A stretch of DNA of 52,182 bases, from assembly GCA_016872215.1 (NCBI GenBank), contig VHAX01000013.1, forward strand, positions 1-52,182, given 5' to 3'. This DNA comes from Sphingomonadales bacterium. GTDB lineage: Bacteria; Bacteroidota; Bacteroidia; UBA7662. The first letter of the stretch is position 1. Each line of letters opens with the position of its first letter. Made by a program: the position numbers and the translations under genes. The notes below the pieces were generated by a model. It saw only the letters and a list, made by a program, of their open reading frames with translations. It did no database searches and was not told the DNA's origin. Of this stretch, positions 10,406 to 25,802 are shown in pieces.

Positions 10406-11307
10406 GAATTATTCCTCTTTCGAAAAAAGTAAACCTGACTGCTACAGGCATCTTTTTTCAGCTTGGCGCTGCACAAAAACCATAGGCCCTTCAACAAACC
10501 AAGGATTGAAGAGGCTGCTGATCCCGAACGGTATTTTTCGCTCAAGATCGAAACATACATAGGGTCGAAGATCATGGGGCGTGTCGAAAGGCATTCAAAA
10601 CCGAACGCTTCAACAAACTTCCGCAGCATATTGGGTCGAAAATGGTATAGATGTCGCGGCACATCCCAGGCTGCCCAATGCTGTTTGTAATGCTGTGCAT
10701 CTGTTGACATCGGATTGGGTACGGCCACTACAAACAAGCCACCAGGCATTATGAGTTTGTGCAGGCAATTAACGTGTGTCCGCAAATCATGCACGTGCTC
10801 TAAAACATGCCACATAGTAACGACCCCAAACTGATCATTCGTTATTTTCAGCCATTCCTCATTGTTTACCTTTAATCCGTGTAGACGCCTGGCGCGTTCA
10901 GCCGTGGCCGGATCGGGCTCAACCACCAGAACATCCCAACCTGAACTACTCATGTGCGATGCAAATTCACCCGTGCCACAGCCCACATCCAACAATCGGC
11001 GTTGAATGTGGCCGCCCCATCTCTCTACTTGTTTCTTTTTAACCCCAATTGTATATTGACGTACCCAACGATACATTGCATTAATTAGCCCTGGTGCATC
11101 TGCACCAGTGTGCGACACATAGTCATCGCTTTGATAGTATGAACCAATATTCACCTGATCAGGACGAGGATTCGTATACCAGAGTCCGCATTCGCCGCAA
11201 CAAACAACCGCAAATACCTCCTTCGATACGGAATAATCAACGATACTTTGTGAATCTACCGGTTTATTCAGGCTTTCGCAGGCAGGACAAGCTTTCAGTG
11301 TTTCCAT
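10402..11307 (-). CDS. Class I SAM-dependent methyltransferase with N-terminal zinc-ribbon-like motif
   Basis: The protein has 301 residues. A cysteine cluster begins the chain: CPACES at 8-13, then CCGECGLWYTNPRP near 36-49. This is the putative-zinc-binding start seen in many methyltransferases of this group. The SAM-binding motif I is RRLLDVGCGTGEFASHM near residue 105; WHVLEHVHD and a post-motif strand GLFVVAVPNP follow. The C-terminus has a short hydrophobic segment (SILGLLKGLWFLCSA), so it may touch the membrane. The substrate is unknown. The start lies 13 nt inside mnmG, suggesting translational coupling. Confidence 0.85.
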   Translation of the reverse strand: METLKACPACESLNKPVDSQSIVDYSVSKEVFAVVCCGECGLWYTNPRPDQVNIGSYYQSDDYVSHTGADAPGLINAMYRWVRQYTIGVKKKQVERWGGHIQRRLLDVGCGTGEFASHMSSSGWDVLVVEPDPATAERARRLHGLKVNNEEWLKITNDQFGVVTMWHVLEHVHDLRTHVNCLHKLIMPGGLFVVAVPNPMSTDAQHYKQHWAAWDVPRHLYHFRPNMLRKFVEAFGFECLSTRPMIFDPMYVSILSEKYRSGSAASSILGLLKGLWFLCSAKLKKDACSSQVYFFRKRNNS

Positions 11308-13184
11308 TCAGCACCTTTATTCAAATATACCATTAGTATGCTAATGTCGGCAGGAGAGACCCCTGAAAGCCGTGAAGCTTGTCCCAATGATTCTGGCCTC
11401 ATTGCCGACAATTTTTCCCTTCCCTCATGCGACAAAGCGCGTATCGTTTGAAAATTAAAATCAGGCTTTAGGTAGATGTGATCCAAATTCGACATCCTGC
11501 GTGCCTGTTCTTCCTCCCGTTCAATGTAACTGCGGTACTTCCATTGAATTTCCGCCTGTTCGGCATCCTCCTCTGGAAAATCAACTAAAAAGGAGCTAAG
11601 GTGTCCAGAGGCCGCCGACAATTCTCGTATTCCTATGCCAGGGCGCAGCAAGATGCTACCCCACTTCACCTTTTGGTTAATCGGCGCCTCTTCGTGATCG
11701 ATTAACACAGGGTTCACCTCCTTTGGCTCAGCGGTTTTCTGCCGCAGAAACTTCGTGATCGACTCCACATTCCTCACCTTTTGCTCAACACGTGTGTGTC
11801 GATCTTCGCCTATTAAACCGTTGCGAAAGGCGATTTCAGAAAGGCGGATGTCAGCATTGTCCTGACGCAACAAAATCCTGTGCTCCGCGCGCGAGGTAAA
11901 CATTCGATATGGTTCATCCGTACCCTTATTGATCAAATCATCGATCAGCACGCCTATATAGGCCTCAGAACGGCTCAAAACCAGTGATTGCCGGTCGTTT
12001 ATGGCCAAATTGGCATTGGCGCCAGCGAGTAAGCCCTGACAAGCAGCCTCCTCATAGCCTGTGGTTCCGTTGATTTGTCCCGCAAAAAACAATCCCTCCA
12101 CATTCTTGGTCTCAAGCGACGGTCTCAATTGCGTTGGCGGAAAGTAATCGTACTCGATGGCATATCCCGGCCTGAACATACGCGCCTGTTCGAATCCGGG
12201 AATCTTGCGAAGCGCCGCGTACTGAACTTCCTGTGGCAAAGAAGTTGAAAACCCATTGATATACATCTCCACGGTATTCCACCCCTCCGGTTCCACAAAA
12301 ATCTGGTGCCGATCACGTTCAGCAAACCGGTTGATTTTATCTTCTATACTCGGACAATAACGCGGACCCAATCCCTTGATGCTACCATTGTACATGGGCG
12401 AACGGTCGAAACCCGTGCGCAGGAGATCATGCACAGCCTCATTGGTGTAGGTAATCCAACATGATCGCTGCCTTTCCAATGGGCGGGTATCGGTGAACGA
12501 AAACTTACCCGGGTGTTCATCGCCCCTCTGTTCCTCCATCTTCGAGTAATTCAGGCTGCGCCCGTCAATTCGGGGTGGCGTGCCTGTCTTCATACGCCCC
12601 GTAGTGAAACCAAGCGCCATCAACTGTTCGCTTATTCCATAGGATGCGTGCTCTCCGCTTCTTCCGCCTCTTTGTTGCTTCTCCCCCACATGCATGAGAC
12701 CATTGAGAAAGGTGCCTGTCGTTAAGACCACGGCTCTTGCCAAAAAGTGCGTTCCCATGGCAGTGCGCACACCCTCAACCCGGGTGCCACTATCAGCCAA
12801 CAGCAGCTCCACCACAGCGTCTTGCCAAAAGTGAACGCCCTCGGTCTCCTCCAGCATTTGTCGCCAAAGCGCCGCAAACATCATCCTGTCGTTTTGCGTT
12901 CGTGGACTCCACATGGCGGGGCCCTTGGATCGATTGAGCATTCGAAACTGAATGGCCGTTCGGTCGCTCACAATCCCAGAGTAGCCACCGAGAGCATCAA
13001 TCTCGCGAACAATTTGTCCCTTCGCTACACCACCCATTGCCGGGTTACACGACATCTGGGCAATGGTCTGCATATTCATGCTTATAAGCAACACCTTCGA
13101 GCCCATACGCGCGGCCGCGGCTGCAGCCTCACAACCAGCGTGGCCCCCGCCCACCACAATCACATCATAGTCGACCCGCATCAT
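11295..13184 (-). CDS. mnmG: tRNA uridine-5-carboxymethylaminomethyl synthase, FAD subunit
   Basis: The protein has 629 residues. With MnmE it installs the carboxymethylaminomethyl group at U34 of tRNAs for split codon boxes. The FAD-binding start VIVVGGGHAGCEAAAAAARMG, the two GidA signatures (GPRYCPSIEDKI and GQINGTTGYEEAA) and a helical C-terminus ending in the L.R..RISGVSPADI-type tRNA-binding tail are visible. Length is normal. MnmG genes are often close to the origin, which fits the oriC candidate 8 kb away. The gene overlaps ybeY by 4 nt and the methyltransferase by 13 nt. Confidence 0.98.
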   Translation of the reverse strand: MMRVDYDVIVVGGGHAGCEAAAAAARMGSKVLLISMNMQTIAQMSCNPAMGGVAKGQIVREIDALGGYSGIVSDRTAIQFRMLNRSKGPAMWSPRTQNDRMMFAALWRQMLEETEGVHFWQDAVVELLLADSGTRVEGVRTAMGTHFLARAVVLTTGTFLNGLMHVGEKQQRGGRSGEHASYGISEQLMALGFTTGRMKTGTPPRIDGRSLNYSKMEEQRGDEHPGKFSFTDTRPLERQRSCWITYTNEAVHDLLRTGFDRSPMYNGSIKGLGPRYCPSIEDKINRFAERDRHQIFVEPEGWNTVEMYINGFSTSLPQEVQYAALRKIPGFEQARMFRPGYAIEYDYFPPTQLRPSLETKNVEGLFFAGQINGTTGYEEAACQGLLAGANANLAINDRQSLVLSRSEAYIGVLIDDLINKGTDEPYRMFTSRAEHRILLRQDNADIRLSEIAFRNGLIGEDRHTRVEQKVRNVESITKFLRQKTAEPKEVNPVLIDHEEAPINQKVKWGSILLRPGIGIRELSAASGHLSSFLVDFPEEDAEQAEIQWKYRSYIEREEEQARRMSNLDHIYLKPDFNFQTIRALSHEGREKLSAMRPESLGQASRLSGVSPADISILMVYLNKGAEWKH

Positions 13185-19602: not shown

Positions 19603-20415
19603 TCAACGTGGGTGGTTGAGAATCAGAAATGCGTCGGCATCCTTGAGGAATGGTAATCGTGCGCGCGCATCCTGCAAGATTTCCCTGTCTATTTTTGTGC
19701 TGATCACTGTGTCGGCCTCACCAGCGTTCACGATGACGGTTCCCCAAGGGTCTATGACCTGGCTGTTTCCGGAGTATGGTATAGAAAATCCGTCTTCCCC
19801 TACCCGGTTCACACCCACCACATAGGCCTGATTTTCTATGGCCCGTGCCTGCAGCAGTGTATTCCACGCAGTGATTCGCACAGAAGGCCAATTGGCCACA
19901 TACACCAATACATCGTAGTTAAGGACGTTGCGTGACCAAACAGGAAAGCGCAGGTCGTAGCAGATTTGTGGACAAACACGAAAGCCATTTACATCCCACA
20001 ACATACGCCTATTGCCGCGCGTGTACTTCTGATCCTCCCCTGCCAAACTAAACAAATGCCTCTTTTCGTAGGTCTGAACCGTGCCGGAGGGTGACAACAA
20101 TACAAACATGTTATAAAAACGGCCTCCCTTCTTCATCATCAACGAACCGCCGAGGTAGTAGCCCCCCTCTGCCGCACGTGCACGCATCCATGACAACACT
20201 GAATCATTCTTTCTCCATCGACATGCAACACCTTCTTGCTCCATGGAGAAACCTGTACTGAACATTTCTGGTAAAAGCACCAAGTGGGTATAGCCTTCTG
20301 TACCCAAATCCCGTTCATCTGCAGCCCATTCATCCAATCGATGACCTAAATCGGTGGTATTGGCAATCGGATCGCGCCAATGAAGATGCGCCTGAACCAA
20401 ATGAACCTTCAGCAT
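19603..20415 (-). CDS. Omega-amidase, nitrilase superfamily (YafV-like)
   Basis: The protein has 270 residues. The catalytic set of the nitrilase superfamily is complete: Glu50 in LLPEMFSTGF, Lys118 in YEKRHLF and Cys152 in QICYDLRFPVWSRN. The FSTGFS motif and length match YafV/Nit2-type omega-amidases, which hydrolyse 2-oxoglutaramate (or 2-oxosuccinamate) to the 2-oxo acid and ammonia in the cytosol. It overlaps the aminotransferase gene by 7 nt. Together they can form the transaminase-plus-omega-amidase route that drives methionine re-synthesis from its 2-oxo acid using glutamine. Confidence 0.9.
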   Translation of the reverse strand: MLKVHLVQAHLHWRDPIANTTDLGHRLDEWAADERDLGTEGYTHLVLLPEMFSTGFSMEQEGVACRWRKNDSVLSWMRARAAEGGYYLGGSLMMKKGGRFYNMFVLLSPSGTVQTYEKRHLFSLAGEDQKYTRGNRRMLWDVNGFRVCPQICYDLRFPVWSRNVLNYDVLVYVANWPSVRITAWNTLLQARAIENQAYVVGVNRVGEDGFSIPYSGNSQVIDPWGTVIVNAGEADTVISTKIDREILQDARARLPFLKDADAFLILNHPR

Positions 20416-21548
20416 AATGATAGGCGATTAGCAGCTTCATATAAAACATCATCCGTTTTCGCAAAACAAAAACGTACCAGCCGCGCTTCTAAAGGCTTCT
20501 GCATGAAGGGTGATAAAGGAATGGCAGCCACACCCCATTCCCGGATGAGACGTTGACAAAAATCTACATCTCCCTCATCGCTGATTCGGCTGTAATCTGC
20601 CAACTGGAAGTAGGTCGACCTGCTAGGCAGCATCGAAAATCGGGTATTCTCCATGGCCTGCAGAAATTTGTCTCGCTTTCTCTGGTAGAAGTTCGATAAA
20701 TACCGGTAGGAATCATCTGTCGATAAAAACTGACTAAATACATGTTGCGCCACACTGTTAACCGAAAACACTACAAACTGATGGACCTGCCTAAACCTTC
20801 TAGTCCAATCTTCTTGGGCTAAAACATAACCCACTTTCCAACCCGTATTGTGGTAGGTTTTTCCAAAAGAAACCACACAAAACAACCTATCACGAATAGC
20901 GGACCTCGTGCATGAGGAAATAAAGGCTTTACCATCAAACACCATATGCTCGTATACTTCATCGCACAACAGCAATAAATCATTCTCCACCACTAAATTC
21001 TCGATCTCCTGCCAATCGTTGTCCGATAAAAATATTCCCGCAGGATTGTGTGGTTGGTTGATAATAATCAGTTTTGTTTGAGAAGTTATAGCGGCACGTA
21101 CTGCATCCCAATCCCAATGAAAAGAACCATAGTTATACGTCAGCGGAACATGAATAGGCCGGGCTCCAGCCATGAGAACTCCAGGCCGGTAAGAATCATA
21201 GGCCGGATCGATTATAATTACCTCATCTCCTTCCTTTACACAGGCCTGCAAAGCAGTATAAATTGCCTGCGTTGCACCCGCCGATATTGTAATTTCCCGT
21301 TCAGCATCCCAAACCGATCCGTAATAGACCGCCACTTTTTCGGCCAGTGCTGTTCGCAATATGGTTAAACCCGCCATTGGGGCATATTGATGAACGGAAT
21401 AGGACACCATCTTGCTAAGTGCTGCCGTCAACCCAATATCAGGTTCAAAATTTGGAAAACCCTGCGCCAAGTTGATAGCGTTGTATTGTCTTGCCATAGC
21501 CGACATTATCGTAAAAACACTTTCTTCTTCTTGTATGCCCTTCCACAT
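20409..21548 (-). CDS. Methionine (glutamine-type) aminotransferase, YbdL-like
   Basis: The protein has 379 residues and is a fold-type I PLP enzyme. Lys230 in SFGKTYHNTGWKVGYV is the PLP lysine; NQPHNPAG and DEVYEHMVF are the usual cofactor contacts. The start NLAQGFPNFEPD matches YbdL and kynurenine/glutamine aminotransferases, which transfer the amino group from glutamine or methionine to 2-oxo acids. The ATG at 21548 begins directly at the edge of the oriC candidate. The overlap with the omega-amidase gene supports a shared pathway in methionine salvage. Confidence 0.9.
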   Translation of the reverse strand: MWKGIQEEESVFTIMSAMARQYNAINLAQGFPNFEPDIGLTAALSKMVSYSVHQYAPMAGLTILRTALAEKVAVYYGSVWDAEREITISAGATQAIYTALQACVKEGDEVIIIDPAYDSYRPGVLMAGARPIHVPLTYNYGSFHWDWDAVRAAITSQTKLIIINQPHNPAGIFLSDNDWQEIENLVVENDLLLLCDEVYEHMVFDGKAFISSCTRSAIRDRLFCVVSFGKTYHNTGWKVGYVLAQEDWTRRFRQVHQFVVFSVNSVAQHVFSQFLSTDDSYRYLSNFYQRKRDKFLQAMENTRFSMLPSRSTYFQLADYSRISDEGDVDFCQRLIREWGVAAIPLSPFMQKPLEARLVRFCFAKTDDVLYEAANRLSLC

Positions 21549-21985
21549 AAAACTTAACTATCCTTGCAAAAATTGATTGTTTTTTTTGCCCAGCAAATTA
21601 TAATCAATATTTTTTAAAAATTGATTGTTGTTGTTAGGGTTGTTTATTTGTGGATAAAAAAAAATATTTTTTTTTTCAACCCTCATCAACACACTCATCC
21701 ACAACGAATCTGATCAGGAATGAGGTATAGTTTATAAGTTTAGTTTGTTTTACGACCACTATCAACAGTGTGGATGAAAAAGTAGGAGGTTGGTGGGGAT
21801 AAAATATATAATAAATACTGTTGAAAACACCTGTGCAGGAAGTGGAAAAAAAAATATAAAAAAACTAATCCAAGGAAAGAATGTGTTTCATCAACATCCA
21901 TAGTCTCCAAAAGAGGAGGATGTGAACATGACCGCAAACAACTTATCAACAGAAAAAAAATGCAATTTGTAACATCATATAAGTA
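21549..21985. other. oriC: Chromosomal replication origin (oriC) candidate
   Basis: A 437-bp gene-free AT-rich segment. DnaA boxes against TTATCCACA: exact at 21649-21657 (minus). One mismatch: 21695-21703 (plus), 21769-21777 (minus), 21794-21802 (minus, TTATCCCCA) and 21943-21951 (plus, TTATCAACA). Two mismatches: 21683-21691, 21759-21767, 21819-21827 and 21888-21896. The left part (21571-21680) is T/A-rich with the repeat AAAATTGATTGTT occurring twice and long A/T runs, as expected for a DNA unwinding element. All genes to the left down to 7005 are minus-strand, and parS sites lie 8.2 kb away. dnaA is not adjacent, which is common in Bacteroidota. Confidence 0.88.
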
Positions 21986-22549
21986 TTACAGGCAGAACCA
22001 ATCCTTGTAGACCGGGCTGGGGAGCAGGTAGCGCACGGAATGACCTGATGCATGCAGATCACGGATTAGGGTCGAGGAAATCTCCAGTAGGGGGGCATCT
22101 ACCATTTGAACTGATGGGTGGAACTGGAGTGCACAATCAACACTTCCTTGGCGTGGGTACACAAGAACGGGGAAGCGCATGAGTATTTTATTGTATGCTT
22201 TCCAGCGGTGGAACTGCTCGAGGTTGTCCTGCCCGATAATCAGGTGAAAAGAATGCTCAGGGTATTTTTCAGTGAGAGCATTCAGCGTGTGGATGGTGTA
22301 GGAGGGCAAAGATAAGCTAAATTCAATGTCACATACACGGAACTGGGGATTGTCGGCAATAGACATACTCACCCACCTCAGGCGGTCAGCTTGGTGGTAC
22401 AAATCCTTATCGTTTTTGAAGGGATTGCCGGGCGACACCACGAACCAAACCTCGCTGAGGGCACAGTGCGACACAAAATATTCAGCCAAAATGAGATGGC
22501 CTGTGTGTACCGGGTTGAACGAACCGAAAAAAAGACCAACAACACTCAT
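21986..22549 (-). CDS. nadD: Nicotinate-nucleotide adenylyltransferase
   Basis: The protein has 187 residues from the ATG at 22549, chosen because MSVVGLFFGSFNPVHTGHL is the normal start and its ATGA overlaps the gmk stop. It adenylylates nicotinate mononucleotide in NAD synthesis. The nucleotidyltransferase motif GSFNPVHTGH and the ISSTLIRDLHASG signature near the C-terminus are present. An upstream in-frame start would add 16 residues inside gmk and is unlikely. It ends beside the oriC candidate and is the last gene of a minus-strand set with yicC and gmk. Confidence 0.95.
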   Translation of the reverse strand: MSVVGLFFGSFNPVHTGHLILAEYFVSHCALSEVWFVVSPGNPFKNDKDLYHQADRLRWVSMSIADNPQFRVCDIEFSLSLPSYTIHTLNALTEKYPEHSFHLIIGQDNLEQFHRWKAYNKILMRFPVLVYPRQGSVDCALQFHPSVQMVDAPLLEISSTLIRDLHASGHSVRYLLPSPVYKDWFCL

Positions 22550-23124
22550 AGTGGAAGGGATAGAAACGCGCGAATACGATCGACCAACTGTGTGCAAGCC
22601 ACATCTAAATTATTGTTCGGTTGTATATAGTCGAATAAATATGCCAAACGTACCTCCTCGGCAGCTTTTCTAAGTCGGATGCGTATGAGTTCCTCCGTTT
22701 CCGTTTTACGCGCCCGCAGCCTTTGTTCGAGCATGTCGATGCCCCCGGCGTCCACAAAAATAGATAGAGCCTGGTTACCATAAGCTTTTTTTATATTGAG
22801 ACCACCCCGCACATCCACATCAAAAACGACAGACAGGCCGCGCGACAAACATTCATCGACTGAAGACTTCAGAGTGCCGTAAAAAATCCCCGCATACACC
22901 TCTTCCCACTCCAAAAAAGCGTTCTCTTGCAACAACTCCCGGAAACGGTCGGTCGACAAAAACCAATAGTCTCGTCCATCCTCTTCGTGTGAGCGCCGCG
23001 CCCGGGTGGTGGCGCTAACCGAGAACTGCATATCTGGCAAGACCGACAACAGGCGACGCGCTATGGTGGTTTTACCACTGCCCGATGGGGCGCTGAGGAT
23101 GATGAGTTTACCAGGAACGGTCAT
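22546..23124 (-). CDS. gmk: Guanylate kinase
   Basis: The protein has 192 residues. It phosphorylates GMP/dGMP to the diphosphate. The P-loop SAPSGSGKTTIARRLL is at 10-25, followed by the GMP-binding SVSATTRARRSHEEDGRDYWF and EWEEVYAGIFYGTLKSSVDE segments. Length is normal. It starts 4 nt after the yicC stop and its stop overlaps the nadD start, so yicC-gmk-nadD form one unit. Confidence 0.97.
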   Translation of the reverse strand: MTVPGKLIILSAPSGSGKTTIARRLLSVLPDMQFSVSATTRARRSHEEDGRDYWFLSTDRFRELLQENAFLEWEEVYAGIFYGTLKSSVDECLSRGLSVVFDVDVRGGLNIKKAYGNQALSIFVDAGGIDMLEQRLRARKTETEELIRIRLRKAAEEVRLAYLFDYIQPNNNLDVACTQLVDRIRAFLSLPL

Positions 23125-24031: not shown

Positions 24032-24958
24032 TTATTTGCGGGCTCTACCCACCATAAACACACCGGCCATCACGAGGCTGCCGAATGCGAGCTGCGCGAA
24101 GTGCAGTCTTTCGCCCCAGAACAGCCCGAATACCGCCGCCAGCAGGGGCTGCAGGTAAATGTAGCTACCCACAACTGTGGCGCGGGTGTGCTTGAGCGAC
24201 CATACATTGAGCCAGTAGGCACCCACGCTGATGCCCAGGATGATGAACCAAAAGCACACCCAATCACTCAGGCTAAACTGTCCCCACTCGATCGATGAGA
24301 GCCCCCCCCAGCCAAAGGGGGCCACGAGGATGCTGCCGTAGAGGAACAGCCAGCGCATGAGCTGCAGGGTATCGAAGCGGTTGAGCAGGGGTTTTACCAT
24401 AATCAGATACACCGCGAAGAAGAGGGCGTTCACGAGCACCATAAGGTTTCCGGCCACGGTATTGGGCCTGGCCCCGGCGGTGACCACGGTGTCGGCGCTG
24501 TATATAAGGAGTGCCGCCCCTAGTGCCCCGAAGAGCATACCACTGATTTTAAGGAGCCCCGCCTTCTCTTTTAGAAACACCAGGGCGAAGGCGAGAATGA
24601 AGATGGGTGTTGTGATCATAATGACCGCTGCGCTTACCGGGGAACTTACGGTAAGTCCCTTAAAGAAGAGGAGCATGTTGCCGGCCACGCCAAATACAGC
24701 ACATGCAAGCAGCCGGCGGTGTTCGCCCACCGTGGGAGTGTGCAGCGCCTGACGGGCGGAGGTCGGCAGCAGGGAGTAGACCGCCCAGAAGACAGCGCAG
24801 GAGATCCACACTCTGAGCAAGATGAAGGGCTCAGGGGAGATAAGTCGCGGCATGATTTGCTGCGCGATGCTGTAGGAGGCGCCGTAGAATAGCGCGGCCA
24901 ACAAAAGGGAGCCGTGAACCTTTAGGGTGTTTTGTTCGTTTACTGTGCTTTGAGCCAT
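24032..24958 (-). CDS. EamA/DMT-family transporter
   Basis: The protein has 308 residues from the ATG at 24958. A longer open frame exists upstream but overlaps the divergent metal-binding gene and has no membrane character. About ten hydrophobic helices occur in two repeats, with the EamA start SLLLAALFYGASYSIAQQIMP and the second-repeat text GNLMVLVNALFFAVYLIMVK. Such drug/metabolite transporters export small metabolites; the substrate is unknown. The start is 42 bp from the divergent HMA gene. It may be the first gene of a unit with yicC-gmk-nadD. Confidence 0.9.
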   Translation of the reverse strand: MAQSTVNEQNTLKVHGSLLLAALFYGASYSIAQQIMPRLISPEPFILLRVWISCAVFWAVYSLLPTSARQALHTPTVGEHRRLLACAVFGVAGNMLLFFKGLTVSSPVSAAVIMITTPIFILAFALVFLKEKAGLLKISGMLFGALGAALLIYSADTVVTAGARPNTVAGNLMVLVNALFFAVYLIMVKPLLNRFDTLQLMRWLFLYGSILVAPFGWGGLSSIEWGQFSLSDWVCFWFIILGISVGAYWLNVWSLKHTRATVVGSYIYLQPLLAAVFGLFWGERLHFAQLAFGSLVMAGVFMVGRARK

Positions 24959-25000: not shown

Positions 25001-25447
25001 ATGCATACACCCAACCGAATATTGAAATACCCCCTCTTGTCGCTGATGCCCACGGCCTTGTTTTTTTGGACGACACCCTCCCCCGTCCTGGGCGTCGGGT
25101 ATGATACACCCGGTCTGCATGCTTCGGCGGGCGTGATGAATGGAGGTGCGCAAAAGCCGCCTAAGAAGAAGGAGATCCGGTTTTTGGTGAAAGGTAACTG
25201 TGGACAATGTGAGCAGCGGATTTTGGAAGCACTCGACCAGAGAGGGATTATTGCCGCGGGATGGGACCGCAACCAGCAGGAGGCCTGGGTGGTGTTTAAG
25301 CCATCGCTGGTGAGCGAAGAGCAGATTCACGACTACATCGCGGCTGCCGGCCACGACACCGCGCTGAAGAAGGCCAATTCGGAGGTCTACAAGCGTCTAC
25401 CCCAGTGCTGTTTATACCGAGACGGCCTGAATGTACATGATGATTAG
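25001..25447 (+). CDS. Heavy-metal-associated (HMA) domain protein, exported
   Basis: The protein has 148 residues. An N-terminal hydrophobic segment (YPLLSLMPTALFFW) may be a signal peptide. Residues 57-122 form an HMA domain: the metal-binding motif GNCGQC (Cys67, Cys70), a beta-alpha-beta run, and AAAGHDT (His118). The C-terminal EVYKRLPQCCLYRD carries an extra Cys pair (136-137), typical of a Bacteroidota HMA subgroup. The likely role is periplasmic copper or other soft-metal binding. A TonB receptor with a Cys pair lies 1.7 kb downstream, and similar proteins are often associated with such receptors (inference). Confidence 0.85.
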   Translation: MHTPNRILKYPLLSLMPTALFFWTTPSPVLGVGYDTPGLHASAGVMNGGAQKPPKKKEIRFLVKGNCGQCEQRILEALDQRGIIAAGWDRNQQEAWVVFKPSLVSEEQIHDYIAAAGHDTALKKANSEVYKRLPQCCLYRDGLNVHDD

Positions 25448-25802
25448 CGGGGGTATGGTCGAGTTGGGCTATGACGGCCTGCTGGTTCCACCAATATCTT
25501 TGAAAAAGCCGAAAGGAGTTGATTGTGCTTTGTGGGGCGTATAATAATTTAGAAAACATAAAGCTCAATGAGCTTAAAGAGGCGATTTGGGTGTGTAAGC
25601 GAGGGGGTGCCTGGTGGATAACAAGTCATAGGCAAGGAATGCATACATTACAGACAAACGAGAGAGCCGCCCAAGGATGATCCGGATGGTTCTTTATAAT
25701 ATTTTTGTATAATTGACAAAAAAAGTGGAGACCAGAACCCACTCAAAAAAACGGGGCGTAATCCGAAAAGCCTTATGAGTAGGAAAAATAAATTTATCCA
25801 CA
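25448..25802. other. Intergenic region, 355 bp
   Basis: No convincing gene is seen. The first 100 bp could encode a 36-residue peptide from the ATG at 25440, which I do not support. AAGCTCAATGAGCTT (25561-25575) is a small perfect hairpin without a T-run. TATTTTTG at 25700-25707 is a possible -7 box about 95 bp before the next gene. The last 9 bases form an exact DnaA box (25794-25802). Confidence 0.6.
25794..25802 (+). promoter_or_regulatory. Exact DnaA box abutting a start codon
   Basis: TTATCCACA ends at the base before the ATG at 25803. It is identical to the best box in the oriC candidate 4 kb away. A DnaA bound here would cover the start of the membrane-protein gene. A single box can occur by chance. 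Confidence 0.4.

Follow-up and report, generated by a model that had tools for sequence, protein, structure and literature searches.

Several features of described bacterial origins bear on the locus reported here. The gidA (mnmG) gene is one of the indicator genes used by Ori-Finder (PMC2275245), TTGT and TTATT are the motifs of the E. coli ssDUE (PMC10316083), and the length of the spacer between the better DnaA box and the DnaA-trios is known to peak at 10–13 bp (PMC8287927). The window analyzed in this study, 52,182 nucleotides in length, is the complete contig C13 of the 2.09-Mb, 53-contig and 99% complete genome of a Bacteroidia bacterium. As judged from its sequence, the 437-bp gap separating the start of a methionine aminotransferase gene from the stop of nadD, both genes lying on the minus strand (Table 1), is almost certainly the chromosomal oriC of this bacterium, and very likely the only oriC of the genome. 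The first-pass annotation had marked this box-rich gap between ybdL and nadD as a probable oriC; its exact bounds were verified, and the proposal was borne out: boxes are locally in excess, the skew has its minimum nearby (in three relatives as well as in the window), a conserved core is present as a single copy, and mnmG is linked.

Table 1. Features of the putative oriC and its surroundings (positions in the window)
Feature	Position	Strand	Basis or remark
Putative oriC, intergenic	21549..21985	.	Ten predicted DnaA boxes (1 exact, 4 one-mismatch, 5 two-mismatch)
mnmG (gidA)	11295..13184	-	Origin-linked marker gene, 8.4 kb from core
Methionine aminotransferase (YbdL-type)	20409..21548	-	Left neighbour
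nadD	21986..22597	-	Right neighbour
AAAATTGATTGTT copy 1	21569..21581	+	A/T-rich flank; direct reading
Probable DNA unwinding element	21595..21674	.	Third least stable 80-bp stretch of window
Conserved oriC core	21604..21660	+	A/T stretch, TTG/TTA trinucleotides, GGG, degenerate box, exact box; sole strong R1 match in genome
AAAATTGATTGTT copy 2	21617..21629	+	Runs into TTG repeats; direct reading
TTGTTGTTGTTAG	21625..21637	+	TTGT motifs on + strand only, single TAG trio beside GGG
Exact DnaA box TTATCCACA	21649..21657	-	11 bp from TAG trio; box scan and direct reading
One-mismatch DnaA box TCATCCACA	21695..21703	+	Box scan
One-mismatch DnaA box TCATCCACA	21769..21777	-	Box scan
One-mismatch DnaA box TTATCCCCA	21794..21802	-	Box scan
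One-mismatch DnaA box TTATCAACA	21943..21951	+	Box scan
Two-mismatch DnaA boxes (n=5)	21683, 21759, 21819, 21841, 21888		Box scan

The DnaA encoded in this genome carries the canonical GGRDHSTVIHSC box-binding signature, and thus TTATCCACA is the box to be expected. The earlier count of one exact and four one-mismatch boxes was right, while that of the two-mismatch boxes had to be raised from four to five. Boxes with at most one mismatch numbered five in the gap against a mean of 0.24 in dinucleotide shuffles, and five or more were obtained in 0 of 20,000 shuffles, a clustering above chance as expected of an oriC. The gap was the densest box cluster of the window, and its box score of 26 compared with 15 for the best 437-bp stretch elsewhere (874 kb of the genome outside the window). 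A similar box density in many other intergenic regions had been named beforehand as an observation that would speak against an origin; the sampled parts of the genome contained no cluster to compare with it. Over the whole genome, boxes with at most one mismatch were about as frequent as matches to a reversed-pattern control (487 vs 468), indicating that the box excess at the gap is local. The rightmost one-mismatch box is among those best kept in place across the genus (ACTTATC[A/T]ACA).

The minimum of the cumulative GC skew had been predicted near 21.7 kb; it was found within the window at 24313, 2.3–2.8 kb from the gap, which does not refute the origin reading. Since the genome itself is fragmented into 53 contigs, relatives with long contigs were also used for the skew. 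The minimum and the top box cluster were located at 182266 and 184461, respectively, in G008 (400 kb), at 472544 and 475821 in G005 (261 kb), and at 159893 and 156421 in G010 (106 kb), the top cluster of each stretch examined being the one beside nadD. The association with the GC-skew minimum that characterizes an oriC was thus seen in the window and in stretches of 106–400 kb from three relatives, and the offset of 2–3.5 kb between minimum and cluster was counted against the oriC reading.

In the alignment, the conserved core lies at the aminotransferase side and consists of an A/T stretch, TTGTTGTTGTTAGGG, and then CTGTGnAAAnGTGGATAA, in which a good box comes after a weak one. R1, a sequence-only profile of this core of approximately 60 bp trained with G001, G020, and G004 left out, matched 16 of the 21 genomes of the order, each of them exactly once. 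The held-out genomes were matched with E-values of 1.8e-11 (G001), 4.3e-10 (G020), and 1.4e-5 (G004), and the next-best match in the window's own genome had an E-value of 0.31. Among the 21 genomes, R1 found no match in G007, G014, G015, and G016, which belong to family f1 and are all fragmented (110–250 contigs), and the one f3 genome, G018, possessed neither a box cluster at nadD nor the R1 core; with the exception of these four f1 genomes and the single f3 genome, the core was conserved in a single copy per genome, as expected of an oriC. In G004 and G001, the core was located at the extreme end of a contig (G004:C23:17-80 and G001:C182:279-336), suggesting that oriC may be a place where assemblies are prone to break. 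The box cluster adjoins nadD in genomes of f1, the family of the bacterium under study, and of its sister family f2, and no box cluster was observed beside nadD in f3 and other families. A scan of the NadD loci of other Bacteroidota likewise revealed no adjoining box cluster except at L099, which belongs to the f1 genome G006, and hence linkage to nadD is peculiar to families f1 and f2. In the f1 genomes G008, G005, G010, and G006, nadA is situated between the origin and the aminotransferase gene; it is missing there in the window's genus.

Within the order, the distance from the core to mnmG was 1.4 kb (f2) or about 8–9 kb (f1) wherever both were on the same contig, held-out G004 included. 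In the window, where mnmG is accompanied by ybeY, the distance agrees with the closeness to mnmG/gidA of a gidA-linked oriC. Given that gidA is an Ori-Finder indicator gene, the location of the origin is ordinary, and a relocation to a novel place, considered for the unusual neighbours nadD and ybdL, was rejected in view of this ordinary mnmG-linked setting. The gap was confirmed not to adjoin dnaA, which was located on contig C5. A search of the 400, 261, and 106 kb around the origins of G008, G005, and G010, in which the positive control was found, did not find dnaA either. A dnaA-adjacent origin was rejected, since the skew of C5 is close to a local maximum, and not to its minimum, at dnaA. 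The additional claim of the first-pass annotation, that annotation by dnaA position would miss this origin, was correct as to the distance of dnaA but overstated, because origin finders use more than dnaA, and the same contig carries mnmG/gidA, which is among the listed indicator genes (PMC2275245). On C5, the cumulative skew is lowest at 20.3 kb and climbs from there until it peaks at 57.7 kb, and one exact DnaA box, possibly for autoregulation, is found just upstream of dnaA (G000:C5:48461, locus L036). In the literature searched, a Bacteroidetes oriC linked to gidA was not found beyond general indicator-gene statements, although it may nonetheless have been reported.

In other families, R1 yielded nine weaker matches among 198 Bacteroidia genomes, with E-values from 7e-6 to 9e-4. 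For seven of the nine (G110, G113, G144, G203, G094, G177, and G206), mnmG shared the contig with the match at a distance of 3.7–8.4 kb, and for the remaining two it was on a different contig; by our own arithmetic, a chance placement no more than 10 kb from a given gene has, in a genome of about 3 Mb, a probability below 1% in each case. Sub-threshold matches in G034, G030, and G038 (E 0.01–0.15) also lay 3.8–4.7 kb from mnmG. Several of the matches outside the order sit in dense box clusters, and the match in G087, which is without strong boxes, is probably false. The skew around these matches gave a mixed picture, with good agreement in G144 and G113, an offset of 24 kb in G094, and no support in G203. 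Their immediate neighbours differ (nadA, pheS, an AMP-binding enzyme, an ABC transporter), and we interpret the whole as an ancient origin that is linked to mnmG and has undergone reshuffling of its flanks. It is conceivable, albeit somewhat doubtful, that one oriC core is common to the Bacteroidia, with tandem TTG/TTA trinucleotides and a single terminal TAG or AAG at the place taken by the DnaA-trios in B. subtilis, and that this core, an unwinding element of the class's own, stays near mnmG amid reshuffled flanks. Two loci are worth recording. L216 (genome G058), an example of the dense clusters matched outside the order, contains, at 1196–1520 directly upstream of nadA, an R1 match with 8 exact, 8 one-mismatch, and 8 two-mismatch boxes in about 440 bp, and L090 of Siphonobacter sp. 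SORGH_AS_0500 contains at approximately 20081, about 10 kb from nadD, 2 exact, 2 one-mismatch, and 5 two-mismatch boxes, a possible origin of that genome.

Direct reading of the A/T-rich flank recovered both copies of AAAATTGATTGTT, the repeated element pointed out in the first-pass annotation, and the element of low stability expected in an oriC was present beside the boxes. Its plus strand carries six TTGT motifs (21549–21700) and one TTATT, and none was present on the minus strand; the TTGT/TTATT motifs thus occur on the strand reading into TGTGGATAA, as in an ssDUE of the E. coli type. The exact box lies 11 bp from TAG and GGG. By the DnaA-trio rule, at least three 3'-NAN-5' trios are required within 16 bp of a box, and only one, TAG, was found at the core box; matches to the rule at other boxes were non-conserved and, given how loose the rule is, come as no surprise. 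A canonical DnaA-trio BUS was therefore not adopted. Taken together, the low stability, the TTGT/TTATT motifs on the plus strand, and the failure of the three-trio rule favor opening with capture of the T-rich plus strand. In the mechanism we propose, ATP-DnaA supplied from the distant dnaA would bind the exact box together with the weaker ones lying to the right of it, and the bound DnaA would then oligomerize and open the A/T-rich element at about 21580–21640. By analogy with the ssDUE-recruitment model of E. coli, DnaA might hold the plus strand with its TTGT repeats and TAG in single-stranded form, the single TAG being a possible DnaA contact, and the open plus strand would allow DnaB to load and two forks to leave.

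A cluster of boxes is not in itself proof of an origin, and the gap might instead serve to titrate DnaA or to regulate it, as a datA- or DARS-like site close to the real origin, a view to which the second, smaller box cluster 4 kb away at 25355–25802 lends some weight. We regard this as very improbable, since the gap includes an unwinding element whose GC cluster adjoins a box, occurs in single copy, and in four genomes lies where the skew switches, with no denser cluster in the sampled sequence. The true origin could also be sought in the intergenic region 25355–25802 itself, where gene direction switches: the skew minimum falls between both sites, and this region contains an exact box at 25794, a one-mismatch box at 25613, and weaker ones, with a further one-mismatch box at 25199 inside the neighbouring gene. 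Its box score, however, is 14 against 26 in the gap, it is without the conserved core, its exact box abuts a DUF805 RNA element (25720–25789, Rfam RF03081), and in relatives the nadD cluster alone stands out, so that this placement has hardly any probability left. As for chance enrichment, the A+T content of the gap, 70%, does raise loose-box counts, but its score was reached in 0 of 20,000 composition-preserving shuffles, and the conservation of both position and core in relatives refutes this explanation, whose probability we consider negligible.

The assignment of the gap as oriC fixes the origin for an uncultured lineage whose 53-contig genome makes whole-genome skew unusable, and provides a reference point for estimates of replication rate from read depth. 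The origin is of the ordinary, known mnmG-linked kind, and the useful by-products are the core profile and the mnmG rule: the R1 profile together with mnmG linkage constitutes a rule for locating oriC in fragmented Bacteroidia genomes. In addition, the T-rich trinucleotides raise the testable question of what motif in single-stranded DNA is required by DnaA in bacteria other than the model species.

Compared with the gidA(mnmG)-linked oriC of the E. coli gidA-mioC type, the locus shares a box cluster and an A/T-rich element near mnmG, at the skew switch and away from dnaA. It differs in that mnmG is not adjacent, eight or so genes lying between, and in that its direct neighbours are nadD and the methionine aminotransferase gene (nadA in some relatives). 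Like the DUE of E. coli oriC (PMC10316083), it has a TTGT-bearing T-rich strand of the same polarity toward the TGTGGATAA box, whereas its tandem TTG trinucleotides end in TAGGG directly before the box pair and no 13-mers were recognized. With the BUS and DnaA-trios of B. subtilis (PMC6669920, PMC8287927), it has in common the box, the 11-bp spacer, the GC cluster, one TAG trio, and an A/T-rich repeat of 3-bp periodicity; unlike in that system, the central adenine is found in the first trio only, and those that follow are TTG/TGT.
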